DNA of 47,052 nucleotides from positions 1 to 47,052 of the forward strand of contig JAJRAN010000071.1 of assembly GCA_028682915.1 (NCBI GenBank), in the 5' to 3' direction. The position numbers were made by a program, and so were the translations under genes. Of this stretch, positions 36,733-43,189 are shown one piece after another. The first letter of the stretch is position 1; each line of letters opens with the position of its first letter. The notes beneath the pieces were generated by a model that saw only the letters and a program-made list of their open reading frames with translations, searched no databases and had not been told where the DNA came from. The DNA comes from Methanomassiliicoccales archaeon. Its GTDB lineage: Archaea > Thermoplasmatota > Thermoplasmata > Methanomassiliicoccales > UBA472.

Positions 36733-39700
36733 GTGGCTGCGATGATAAAGCAGGTCCAGGCGAATTATAATCCTGCCGAGCTCGAGAAAAGGGTTCGGGA
36801 ACATTGGGCGAATGCCGAGGTCTATCGCAAGACGAAGGAGCTGCGGGCTAGCGGGCCCAACTTCTATTTCGTGGACGGTCCCCCTTACACCACCGGTGCC
36901 ATCCACCTAGGCACATCGTGGAACAAGACCCTGAAGGACACCTACATCCGCTACCGGCGCATGCAGCGCTACAACGTGCGCGACCAGCCCGGTTACGACA
37001 TGCATGGCCTCCCCATCGAGGTCAAGGTCGAGCAGTCCATCGGGGTGAAGACCAAGAAGGAGATCGAGGAGTACGGCATCGATCGCTTCGTCTCCACCTG
37101 CAAGCAGTTCGCCATGGACTTCCAGAAGCGCATGACCGAGCAGTTCAAGGAGCTCGGCGTGTGGATGGACTGGGACACGCCCTACTTGACGATCACCAGC
37201 CAATACGTGGAGGCGGCCTGGTGGACGCTGAAGCGCGCCTACGACAAGGAGCTGCTCGCGCCATCCAACCGCGTCCTCTCCTGGTGCCCCCGCTGCGAGA
37301 CGGCCCTGGCCGAGGCGGAGATCGAGTACCGGGACGAGAAGGACCCCTCCATCTACGTCCGCTTCCCGCTCAAGGACGACGAGTCCACCTCCCTGCTCAT
37401 CTGGACGACCACGCCGTGGACCCTTCCGGGGAACCTGGCGGTGGCCGCGCACCCCGACCTGCGCTACGCCAAGGTCCGCCTCTCCTCCGCCGAGGGCGAT
37501 GAGACGGTCATCGTGCTCGAGTCCCTGGTGGAGCAGGTGGGCGAGCTTGGCGGGTACGAGGGGTACGAGGTCCTGGACCTGATCGAGGGCGACGACCTCA
37601 TCGGCATGGAGTACATCACCCCCTTCCTCGGCGACGTCGAGTACCAGAGGCAGGCGACCGGGAAGTGGGTGCACCGGGTCATACCCTCCTCCACCGTGGC
37701 GGCGGAGAACACCGGCCTGGTGCATATAGCGCCCGGCCACGGCCCCGAGGACTTCGAGCTGGGCAAGGAGTTCGGGCTGGAGCCGTTCTGCCCGGTCGAC
37801 GAGACCGGCCGGTTCACCAAGGACCTGCCCGTTAGATACGCGGGAATGAGCGTAAAGGAGGCCAACAAGCACATCATCGAGGAGCTCAAGGAGCGTAAGC
37901 TGATGTACTCGGTCGGCACCCTAACCCACCGCTACGGCCATTGCTGGCGCTGCGACTCGGGGATCATCTACCGCAACACCACCCAGTGGTTCCTCAAGAT
38001 CACCCAGATCAAGAACCTCATGCTGGAGGAGATAGAGAAGATCCATTGGACGCCCGATTGGGCCGGCTCCTCCCGCGAATACGATTGGACGGTCAACGCC
38101 CGCGACTGGTGCATCTCCCGGCAAAGATATTGGGGCATCCCCCTCCCGGTCTGGACGTGCCAATGCGGCGAGACGAAGGTGGTCGGATCCATCACCGACC
38201 TGGAGAGCGGGAACGGCTACCGCAAGGACATGGAGCTACACCGCCCCTGGATCGACGCCGTCACTTTCAAATGCCCCCGCTGCTCCAAGCAGATGAGGCG
38301 CGTGCCCGACGTCCTGGACGTTTGGTTCGATTCCGGCGTGGCCACCTGGGCCCAGCTCGGCTTCCCCCGCTCCAGGGCGGAGTTCGACAGATGGTGGCCC
38401 TGCAAGTGGATCACCGAGGCGCACGACCAGACGCGAGGCTGGTTCTATTCTCAGCTCGCGGCCGGGTGCATCGCCTTCGACCGGGCGCCATACGAGGCGG
38501 TCCTCATGCACGGCTGGGTGCTCGACCCCAACGGCCAGCCCATGTCCAAATCCCGCGGCAACGTGATTGAGCCGGAGAAGGTCATCAAGGACTACGGCGC
38601 CGACGCGCTGCGCTTCTACCTCATGCGCACCAACGCCCCCTGGGAGGACACCTCCTTCCAATGGGAGGGGGTCAAGAACGCGAGGAAGACGTTGAACATC
38701 CTGTGGAACGTGGTGAACTTCGCCACCACCTACATGAGCATCGACTCCTTCGAGCCCGGTTCGGTCAGCTTGGAAGGGCTCAAGGCCGCATTGCGCCCCG
38801 AGGACCGCTGGATGGTCTCGCGGACGGAGAAGATGAAGGGCGAGGTGGCCAAGTTCCTGAACTCGTACGAGCTGCACAAGGCCTGCCGCATCATGGAGGA
38901 CTTCGTCCTGGAGGACCTGTCGCGCTGGTACGTCCGCCTGATACGGGACCGCATGTGGTCCGAGAAGGGGGACCTAGACAAGCTCGCAGCCTACAAGGTG
39001 CTGCACGAGGCCCTCCTCAGCCTGACCAAGGTGATGGCGCCCTTCTGCCCTCACATAACTGAGGAGATCTACCAGCACATAGACGGCTCGCTGGAGAGCG
39101 TGCACATGCTCGACTGGCCCGGGGCCGACACCACCCGCCTGGACGAGAGGCTGGACCAGAGCATGGCCACCGTCCAGGAGCTGGTGGACCTGGTCACCAA
39201 GGCGAGGCAGTCGCGCAACATCAAGCTGCGCTGGCCGATGAAGCGGGTGGTGGTCAGGGCCGCCAACAACGACTCCATGGAGGTCATGAAGCAGCTGGAG
39301 TCGGTCATCCTTTCCCAGGCCAACGTGAAGGTGATCGAGTACATCCCCCCTGGTCAGGAATGGGGCGAGATCGTCCTCAACGCGGAGCCAAATCCCAACG
39401 CCATCGGCAAGGTCTACCGCCAATGGGCCTCGAAGATCGCGGTGCTGCTGAAGTCGAGGCCAGCGAAGCAGATCAGGGATTGCATCGAGAAGGGGTCCTA
39501 TTCGCTGGGCATCGAAGGCCAGATGATCAAGATCGAGCCCAACATGGTCAGCTTCACCTCCTCCCTGCCACCCGACGTGGAGGGGGTCAAGTTCTCCGGC
39601 GGCGACCTGTACATGGACTTCGAGATCACCCAGGAGATCGAGGCCGAGGGGTTCGCGCGGGAGCTCATCCGCCGCATACAGCAGATGCGGAAGGACATCA

Positions 39701-40935
39701 AGCTCAACGTCGAGGAGTACGTCAGGGTCGAGGTCAAGGCCTCGGCCAAGCTCATCGAGTTCTTCAGGGTGTGGCACGACCACATCATGTCCGAGACCCG
39801 CTGCCGCCAGCTGGAGTTCGTAGACTCTCCCAAGGGGGACCATACCGCCTCCTGGGAGGTGGAGGGGGAGAAGCTGCATGTGTCTTTGACCTCGCTCCAC
39901 TTCAAGCAGGCCATGGACGAGCTGCTCACCATCAACGGCCTCTCCCAGGATGGCGCTCTGGCCTTGATCGAGGCCGGTCACCGCTCCCTGACCGACCTGA
40001 GGCCGCTCAGCGAGGAGCAGATAGGTAACGTCCCTGGCCTCCCCAAGGCGGACGTGAAGAAGATCTCACATTACCTGGAGAGGGCGGATGAGGCCATCGT
40101 GCCATCGAAGGACGCGGCCAAGCCCCAAGGCGGCATGGCCAAGGAAGCGCTTGTGCCTTTCCTCCTGCGGGTGCCGCGCATGAACCAGGTGAAGGCCGAT
40201 ATGCTCTATGAGGCCGGGTACGACTCCATCGACAAGATCAAGGCGGCATCGAAGGAGGACCTGCGCAAGGTCAAGGGCATGGGAGAGAAGACGGTGGACG
40301 AGATCGTCGCCTACGCCAGCAAGGGCGGCTTCGAGGCCACCATCAAGTGCGAAGGCTGCGGCGCCTTGGTCCCCCCCGACAAGATGACCTGCCCCTCCTG
40401 CGGAGCAAGGGTGAGCATCGAGTCCTTGGTCGAGGAGGAGGACAAGGGAGGGGCGCACAAGCCCGCCCTCGCCCCGGAGGCCGAGCTGGAGAGGTCCTTC
40501 ACCTACCTGATCAAGGAGGAGAAGGCGGAGCGCTCCTACCAACTGTTCGAGAAGGCCCTCGCCAAAGGGATGAAGGGCTTCTGCGTCACCCGCAACTATC
40601 CGCTCAAGATTAAGGCGAAATGGAACCTGGGAGAGACCCCGATACTCTGGCTGAGCAACGTGGGCAAGGAATCGAGCATCAGGCCCAAGGACCTGGAGAA
40701 GCTCTCGGTGTCGCTGGAGCAGTTCCTGGCGCAGTCCGAGGGGGGCGTGATCCTGTTGGACGGGCTGGAGTACCTCATCACCAACAACAACTTCCTCACC
40801 GTGCTGCGATTGGTCCAGTCCCTGAGGGACCAGGTGGCAATCAACCGCTCCATCCTCATGCTGGTCCTCAACCCGTCCACGCTGGACGCGCACGAGCTGA
40901 ACCTGCTGGAGAAGGAAGTGGACGCCACCATCTGA
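36733..40935 (+). CDS. ileS: Isoleucyl-tRNA synthetase with C-terminal HhH + zinc ribbon + DUF835 extension
   Basis: [30 protein letters not shown]; after the anticodon-binding region: HhH-like repeats, [22 protein letters not shown], and [21 protein letters not shown]...[29 protein letters not shown] (DUF835). Confidence 0.95.
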   Translation: [1400 protein letters not shown]

Positions 40936-41715
40936 TCATAGGCCGAGGTCCGCGAGCACCCTCTGGAAGCCCGGTACCAGGTCCAGCCCCTGCATCTGCG
41001 AGGGCTGCACCCACCGGTACTCGGTGTGCTCCCAATCTATGGTGATCTGGTCAGTGGGCGACTCGAAGAGGAAGGGGTGAATGGCCCATATGTTCTCACC
41101 CTGCCGCACCGTAACCGTTGCCGCGCTCCTCGCGAGCTTGGCGCCGGTCACGGTCGTCTCCTCCTCGATCTCCTTGACGGCGGTCTGGAGCGGTTCCTCG
41201 CCCGGCTCGATGTAACCGCTGACGCCGGCCCATTTCCCCTGGCAGGTGGACACCTTGTCGCTCCTCTTGAGCACTAGCAGGCGGCCTTGGTGCATGAGCA
41301 AGCTGGTGACCACGCGATGGCCCTTGACCCCGCGGAGGTCGACCGTTCCCCGCTCGCCGTCCACCAATGCCTGGTCGCCGTTCCTTAGCAGGGCGAGGTC
41401 GATCCCGTCCACCATCGGCACCTTGGCCATGACCGCGCCTGTGGCCACGATGGTCTCCGCCCTTTGGTTGATTATGGCCGCGGGCAGCCTCCTCTCCCTC
41501 CTGAGCTGCAGAATGGTGTAGGACCCGACGGTGCTGCCCTTGCCGCAGGGGAAGGAGAAGACCTTGTCGGTCAGTTCGCTGCCCTCAGCCCCCGATGTGC
41601 CGCTGAGCCTTCCCGTCTTGGGGTCGACCCCACCAAGGAAGCTGAAGGGGCGTTCCAACAACAGGACCTCGCCCTCACCCGTGCCCTTGGAGATGCCCCG
41701 CCCGTTTAGGATCAT
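40936..41715 (-). CDS. AcnX/phosphomevalonate dehydratase small subunit (DUF126) fused to Nudix hydrolase
   Basis: MILNGRGISKGTGEGEVLLLERPFSFLGGVDPKTG...GKGSTVGSYTILQL...PAAIINQRAETIVATGAVMAKVPMVD (DUF126), then Nudix box GYIEPGEEPLQTAVKEIEEET. Confidence 0.9.
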   Translation of the reverse strand: MILNGRGISKGTGEGEVLLLERPFSFLGGVDPKTGRLSGTSGAEGSELTDKVFSFPCGKGSTVGSYTILQLRRERRLPAAIINQRAETIVATGAVMAKVPMVDGIDLALLRNGDQALVDGERGTVDLRGVKGHRVVTSLLMHQGRLLVLKRSDKVSTCQGKWAGVSGYIEPGEEPLQTAVKEIEEETTVTGAKLARSAATVTVRQGENIWAIHPFLFESPTDQITIDWEHTEYRWVQPSQMQGLDLVPGFQRVLADLGL

Positions 41716-42884
41716 GCTACCCTCTCCATGAGCTCGGCATAGGAGCCGCAGACGACCTTCTGCGAGCACAGCGAGGGCAGGTAGGTGCAGGCCTTGGCGG
41801 AGTTGGTGGCCGTGCATTCGTGCCTCGATTCGATGGGGGCGACAATCATGCAGGTGTCGCAGACCACCTTTCCAAAGCGCTCCAGGACCGCGGTCTCCTT
41901 CGGGCACCAGGTCCGGACGGTCCGAGAGGTGCAGAACCATACCTCGGGCGAATCGCTCCTCGGCCTCTTGCCGTCGAGCATGGAAGCCAGGGCCTTCATC
42001 TCCATCTGGGAGAGATGGGGGCATCCCACGGCAATCAGGTCGGGGTCCTTCCCGGTGGTGAGGCTCTCCTTCGCCTTCCTGATGTCCTGCCGGTCGAGGC
42101 GCACCCTCTCCAGCCCCTTGAGGTCGCAGTCCAATGATCTGGGCGTGACCCCTTCGACGTGGAAGATCGCCACCGAGCCGGAGGCGGCCATGGCGGCGGC
42201 CATGGTCTTCAGCCCATTGCAGTCCGGCTTTATCCCCTTGAAGTAAGGGACAGCTGCGCCCAGTCTCTGGCCTACGACGTGGCCGAGCAATGAGTAATCG
42301 GTTATCTCGTCCTGGACCTCGGCCTCGATCACCACGGTCGGCCTTCGGTTCTCGTCCAGATGCAATCCGTAATGCGGCGTCTTGCCGATGATGGCCGCCG
42401 CCAAGGCACCCGGACCACCTTCACGATTGGTCCTGGCGCCCAGCACCGAGTTGACATAGGAGAGGGCGGACGATTCCGCCCAGGCCACCGACTCCCCGGG
42501 CTTGGGCGAGTTACCGGTGAAATATGGGGTGCAGGTGCAATTGGTCGTCACACCCATATTTCCATAGGCCTTGATGATGGTGAGCTGCCTCTTGGCGAAG
42601 GCTTCCTCCACCCCCATCTCCTGCCAGCGGGAGAGGTCCATGCCCGCGGGGTTGAGGGTGGTTTCCACCTTCACCCTGGCATCCTTGGAGATCTCCTCGA
42701 GGAAGTCGATCCCCCCTTCCCCGATGGTCTTGTACGAGACCCCGGAGAGGTGTGCTGAGGTGATGGGGACGAGCGAATCGGCATCGTAGATCCTCCCAAG
42801 CGCCACCAGGATCTCCATGGCCCTTTGCATCCCTGGTCCTCTCTCCCCGGCCAATATTGATTCCTCGTCGCGGGTCAGGTGCAT
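41712..42884 (-). CDS. AcnX/phosphomevalonate dehydratase large subunit (DUF521)
   Basis: MHLTRDEESILAGERGPGMQRAMEILVALG..., NCTCTPYFTGNSPKPGESVAWAESSA, CDTCMIVAPIE; ATGA overlap with small-subunit gene. Confidence 0.93.
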   Translation of the reverse strand: MHLTRDEESILAGERGPGMQRAMEILVALGRIYDADSLVPITSAHLSGVSYKTIGEGGIDFLEEISKDARVKVETTLNPAGMDLSRWQEMGVEEAFAKRQLTIIKAYGNMGVTTNCTCTPYFTGNSPKPGESVAWAESSALSYVNSVLGARTNREGGPGALAAAIIGKTPHYGLHLDENRRPTVVIEAEVQDEITDYSLLGHVVGQRLGAAVPYFKGIKPDCNGLKTMAAAMAASGSVAIFHVEGVTPRSLDCDLKGLERVRLDRQDIRKAKESLTTGKDPDLIAVGCPHLSQMEMKALASMLDGKRPRSDSPEVWFCTSRTVRTWCPKETAVLERFGKVVCDTCMIVAPIESRHECTATNSAKACTYLPSLCSQKVVCGSYAELMERVA

Positions 42885-42958: not shown

Positions 42959-43073
42959 CGGGCCCGCCGAGATTTTCGTCCCCAGAGGAGATTTCGAACT
43001 CGGGTCTGAGGCTCTCTCCCATCCCGAAGGATGGCCGGAGGCCCCTGTGATATCCAAGCTACACTACGGGCCC
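42959..43073 (-). tRNA. tRNA-Arg(CCG) with two introns (37/38 and T-loop 59/60)
   Basis: Exons 43073-43035, 43013-42993, 42972-42959; introns 43034-43014 (21 nt) and 42992-42973 (20 nt). Spliced: GGGCCCG TA GTGT AGCTTGGATA TCAC A GGGGC CTCCGGA GCCTC AGAC CCGAG TTCGAAT CTCGG CGGGCCC G (74 nt). Both introns form strict BHB. Box A TTTAAA at 43100-43105. Confidence 0.94.
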
Positions 43074-43189
43074 GCTCTGATGGCAATGCTCGAGCCTGGT
43101 TTAAACCTTTGCCGGATGGTCGCGCTGGAACGGACCCCACCTATCGACTTGGAAATTATATAGCGCAGAGTCCATTCCAATTGTCCATT

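Follow-up and report, generated by a model that had tools for sequence, protein, structure and literature searches.

The gene considered here lies on the minus strand of contig C79 of a Methanomassiliicoccales MAG (1.84 Mb, 93.7% complete, 148 contigs, 2.4% contamination); the whole stretch of 47,052 nucleotides that was analysed is referred to as the window. It raises the question whether a tRNA gene interrupted within its T-loop is functional in such a host, and which endonuclease would serve it. Non-canonical intron positions are generally held to have co-evolved with endonucleases that carry an extra loop, and to our knowledge the accepted view is that organisms with alpha4 or alpha'2 enzymes keep to ordinary introns. 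An initial annotation had considered a T-loop intron to be unexpected in Thermoplasmata, and this premise fits the published surveys, in which non-canonical introns occur mainly in Crenarchaeota, Nanoarchaeota and Thaumarchaeota (PMC4090602, PMC8450103). The gains achieved by tRNAscan-SE 2.0 were mostly crenarchaeal and thaumarchaeal (PMC8450103), and a review from 2014 gives euryarchaeal multi-intron tRNAs only for Methanopyrus and Methanothermobacter (PMC4033280). The position itself, 59/60, is among the listed non-canonical archaeal intron positions (PMC4090602).

Gene anatomy and the tRNA set of the host

Based on sequence inspection and orthologues, the minus strand from 42959 to 43073 comprises a tRNA-Arg(CCG) gene with a precursor of 115 nt, in exact agreement with the sequence and coordinates of the initial annotation. 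Exon 1 (39 nt, 43035-43073) reaches from the acceptor 5' strand through position 37 and contains the anticodon CCG. It is followed by intron 1 (21 nt, 43014-43034) at the canonical position 37/38, by exon 2 (21 nt, 42993-43013), which covers positions 38-59 and ends with TTCGAA of the T-loop, and by intron 2 (20 nt, 42973-42992) at T-loop position 59/60. Exon 3 (14 nt, 42959-42972) comprises T60, the T-stem 3' strand, the acceptor 3' strand and the discriminator G73. Both introns show a strict hBHBh' motif with an outer helix of 5 bp, a central helix of 4 bp, an inner helix of 5 bp and bulges of 3 nt. In the motif of intron 2, the T-stem forms the outer helix and TTCG/CGAA the central one. Excision of both introns results in a 74-nt cloverleaf with the T-loop TTCGAAT, in which 7/7 acceptor pairs and anticodon and T stems of 5 bp each are formed, the weakest part being the D stem with 3 bp and a U-U. 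The two BHB introns, including the one in the T-loop, as well as the helices, bulges and spliced product ascribed to them beforehand, are thus confirmed.

A BRE/TATA-like element, AAAGGTTTAAA, was found by inspection on the minus strand at 43100-43110, 27-37 nt ahead of the 5' end of the tRNA, and several orthologues showed resembling upstream elements, likewise by inspection. The tRNA is located in the gap preceding its downstream neighbour, the gene of the aconitase X large subunit (41712-42884, minus strand). This gene is adjoined by a single ORF combining an aconitase X swivel domain with a NUDIX domain (40936-42024, minus strand). A 1400-aa class I tRNA synthetase of the I/L/M/V type (DUF5915) is encoded at 36733-40935 on the plus strand; as extensions it carries a helix-hairpin-helix and, at the C terminus, a DUF835 domain.

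In shuffled inserts, a strict BHB whose inner helix comprised 5 bp or more arose in 1.4e-4 of the trials for the T-loop and in 1.6e-4 for the anticodon loop. Minimum-energy folding was rejected as a proof of the precursor structure, since the mature tRNA was misfolded as well: the cloverleaf was returned for neither form, the drawn precursor lying 4.5 kcal/mol and the mature form 3.3 kcal/mol above the respective minimum. The case for the fold therefore rests on covariation and not on energy.

A scan of the window with ARAGORN (bacterial setting, no introns) and the Rfam tRNA model detected only a tRNA-Ala(CGC) and missed tRNA-Arg(CCG). This failure of standard finders could be taken to mean that the locus is a decayed copy with chance insertions, with CGG being read by another arginine tRNA. 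A candidate for this role is present in the same genome, since its tRNA-Arg(UCG) (L266) could read CGG by wobble. A second CCG gene, on the other hand, is very probably absent: none of the 37 Rfam tRNA matches of the 93.7%-complete genome, typed by ARAGORN and in the case of a few intron-bearing ones by hand, showed the anticodon CCG, and blastn did not find a second close copy of the gene. The 37 matches leave the expected isoacceptors partly uncovered, which indicates gaps either in the genome or in the search.

The genome contains three genes with T-loop introns, namely Arg-CCG on C79, Arg-UCU on C86 and Lys-UUU on C64. The tRNA-Arg(UCU) (L041, G000:C86:6900-7455) combines an anticodon-loop intron with a T-loop intron at 59/60, and the tRNA-Lys(UUU) (L183, G000:C64:1220-1560) combines a D-loop intron with a T-loop intron. 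As a side observation, D-loop introns with a BHB were seen by inspection in tRNA-Thr(GGU) and tRNA-Thr(CGU) of the same genome, while tRNA-Val(UAC) showed an insert ahead of the anticodon stem (set of L267, L271 and L275); all three were missed by ARAGORN without introns.

Comparative evidence for the T-loop intron

Among the Arg-CCG orthologues of the order, the insert at 59/60 is either present or absent exactly, and the orthologues without it show an ordinary T-loop. In close relatives, G016 carries both introns, G003 only the one in the T-loop and G017 neither, while in the g6 genomes the T-loop intron alone is missing from Arg-CCG. Such precise and separate losses would fit a loss via spliced or partly spliced copies, or a gene replacement. 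The fragmentation of the MAG into 148 contigs and its contamination of 2.4% might suggest an artefact of assembly or binning, or contaminating sequence. Since the same intron was found at orthologous loci of numerous independent assemblies, one of them a same-genus locus with 90% identity, the probability of such an origin is practically negligible.

For a test against the BHB structure, 26 T-arm segments were aligned (A1). In this alignment 97.3% of the cells pair, compared to 76.7% in shuffles and 35-66% with the partners slid. Since the T-stem and the central helix served as selection criteria, their share of this percentage counts for less. The inner helix was not a criterion; here 93% of the cells pair, and changes on both sides, i.e. 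compensatory ones, were observed at 5/5 pairs. Furthermore, the intron base facing T-loop position 57 covaries with it, as G57-C in 22 segments and A57-U in 4. A further alignment (A2, n=32), whose search criteria included central and T-stem pairing, gave the same picture, with a covariation score of 0.576 compared to 0.155 in shuffles. Once the T-loop insert had been taken out, ARAGORN called a tRNA spanning the joint in 127 parses (including duplicates). Altogether, this comparative evidence, with orthologues of both the order and the class sharing the T-loop insert and its compensatory changes, is stronger support for BHB introns than the shuffling of inserts.

These findings also bear on the decayed copy considered above. 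The cloverleaf is intact, the gene is conserved across the order, and the intron changes are compensatory. Since decay yields no base-pair covariation, this reading is largely refuted and is extremely improbable. Alternatively, the insert might never be removed and might serve some separate purpose as part of an enlarged T arm, since it folds into a stable hairpin atop the T-stem. However, its length (19-30 nt in Arg-CCG) and sequence vary freely while the BHB pairing is kept, and insert-free orthologues possess an ordinary T-loop, which makes a retained insert very improbable. We are thus highly confident that the locus is a functional tRNA-Arg(CCG) gene belonging to a family with introns at 59/60, whose introns would be cut by the splicing endonuclease EndA and whose exons would be joined by RtcB.

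Distribution of introns at position 59/60

A model of the T-loop intron (R1) gave full-length introns in 55/61 Methanomassiliicoccales genomes, each with an E-value of 3.4e-5 or better and matches of at least 44 nt; R1 matches of 25 nt at about 1e-3 were intronless T arms. The intron is therefore no oddity beside Thermoplasmata-like genes, as had been supposed at first, since the host belongs to an order in which introns at 59/60 are the rule. At E<=1e-4, R1 matched 258/400 sampled genomes of the class Thermoplasmata, where such introns are thus common. Since R1 might favour tRNAs ending in GGCCCG, a second model (R2) was built without acceptor columns. It recovered the same three genes of the host genome and matched 92/390 genomes of the phylum at E<=0.001; as for R1, a part of the matches outside the order was read.

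The distinct introns that were typed from fetched loci of the order and the class all fall into four tRNAs (95/95), with bins of 26 for Arg-CCG, 37 for Arg-UCU, 24 for Lys-UUU and 8 for Lys-CUU. One locus binned as Arg-UCU (L223) is a Lys-UUU according to its TTTTAA anticodon loop, which changes the true counts to 36 and 25. Introns at 59/60 are thus found chiefly in these four tRNAs in the order. Inner helices that comprise 3 bp or more and directly abut the bulges were determined for 23/26 introns of Arg-CCG, 33/36 of Arg-UCU and 8/8 of Lys-CUU, compared to 3/25 of Lys-UUU. Most T-loop introns of Lys-UUU show one or more additional unpaired bases facing the 5' bulge, resulting in a non-strict BHB.

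In other families of the phylum, R2 matches revealed T-loop introns also in Ala, Arg-CCU, Ser, His, Gly and Asp tRNAs. In G414, G446 and G530 (L326-L336) they occur in Ala, Arg-CCU, Lys, Ser and His tRNAs, a broader range than the window's own order shows. G179 (L320-L324) showed T-loop introns of 13-14 nt with almost no inner helix in five tRNAs, by inspection Arg-UCU, Arg-CCG, Gly, Asp and another Arg. The introns at 59/60 in Thermoplasmata tRNAs are best explained as an old family that has been lost recurrently. While the Arg-CCG introns of close relatives are detectably alike, the three T-loop introns of the host genome show no detectable likeness to one another.

A function beyond splicing could also keep the intron in place. 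Archaeal integrases commonly use the tRNA 3' half, and since the insert splits this half, it might shield the gene against integrating elements. In G414, a genome of the same phylum but another class, a 22-kb provirus is located inside a tRNA-Arg(CCU) on contig C4, with genes for a tyrosine recombinase (integrase), capsid, portal, terminase and tail. It is flanked by direct repeats of 75 bp (C4:16809-16883 and 38824-38898; loci L328, L329, L350 and L351), which contain the entire T-loop intron. In this case the intron thus did not prevent integration, and integrating elements are able to carry introns of this kind. Scans of IMG/VR for attachment sites of viruses that contain a T-loop intron were negative, so that this one provirus is the only basis of the integrase idea. 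With this single case against it, a shielding role is improbable.

The splicing endonuclease and its predicted substrates

The host genome contains an RtcB gene and a single EndA gene, in which two PF01974 units are fused. The active-site Tyr, His and Lys are located in the C unit, the His being absent from the N unit, and a crenarchaea-specific insertion was not seen beside the active site of the catalytic domain. The gene architecture suggests an alpha'2-like EndA; its highest-scoring match in the PDB is the Methanopyrus enzyme 5X89, an (alpha-beta)2 enzyme (PMC6379350). The enzyme shares one gene, two fused units and the confinement of the catalytic residues to the C unit with the alpha'2 endonucleases of Archaeoglobus (1R0V/2GJW) and Thermoplasma (2OHC). 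It differs in its predicted natural substrates, which would include D-loop and T-loop introns, whereas published alpha'2 enzymes are described as restricted to canonical BHB substrates (PMC12397907). A two-unit EndA was detected in nearly all genomes of the order with a match (G040 showed one fragmentary match) and in ten genomes picked across the phylum, irrespective of whether they carry T-loop introns. The idea that the type of EndA decides which genomes of the order carry T-loop introns was dropped, since the intron-less genomes share the two-unit EndA. We know of no alpha'2 enzyme that has been tried on a T-loop intron.

Based on this architecture, the single two-domain EndA would cut both introns at their BHB motifs, and RtcB would then ligate the exons. 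Half of the T-loop splice motif would be provided by the tRNA's own letters, as TTCG (54-57) pairs with CGAA of the intron. Since the motif is formed with the T-stem and TTCG, EndA would need no special recognition of the T arm. For the same reason the mature T-loop would form only after the removal of intron 2, and only then would it be free for D-loop contacts and modification. That the D-loop contacts wait for the second splice, as proposed initially, would follow from the anatomy, with TTCG held in the central helix.

Compared to the known non-canonical BHB introns of archaea, the introns described here are alike in the BHB at the joints, in their shortness and in the coexisting intron at 37/38, and differ in being widespread in Thermoplasmata instead of occurring mainly in Crenarchaeota, Nanoarchaeota and Thaumarchaeota. 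As far as the multi-intron tRNAs of Thermoproteales (Sugahara 2008, Fujishima 2010) are presented where cited in PMC4090602 and PMC4033280, they likewise comprise at least two introns per tRNA and T-arm positions. Different tRNAs share similar introns there, unlike the three dissimilar T-loop introns of the host genome, and their type of enzyme possesses the crenarchaea-specific loop, which EndA lacks here. According to the review from 2014, Korarchaeum stands alone among alpha2 archaea in having non-canonical introns (PMC4033280); its enzyme also has the crenarchaeal loop. In the open-access full text searched, T-loop introns in Thermoplasmata were not described, although individual predictions may be found in GtRNAdb. 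Introns of this kind are thus known, while their spread together with a loop-less two-unit EndA in Thermoplasmata seems to be unreported.

A wider reading would regard 59/60 as an intron hot spot of Thermoplasmatota served by a loop-less alpha'2-like EndA and the non-strict 5' site of Lys-UUU in most genomes of the order as a sign that the enzyme class is laxer than believed, with integrating elements whose attachment core contains the intron possibly moving or removing such introns by swapping tRNA 3' halves. We consider it a tentative proposal that is rather unlikely in this full form. For annotation, the findings imply that simple tRNA finders may wrongly report tRNA genes as missing in the Thermoplasmata group. 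Members of the Methanomassiliicoccales exist in culture, and therefore the splicing of the introns is directly testable. Altogether, a whole class in which D-loop and T-loop introns coexist with mostly strict motifs and a two-unit enzyme lacking the loop suggests that it is the shape of the motif, and not its position, that is limited by the type of enzyme.
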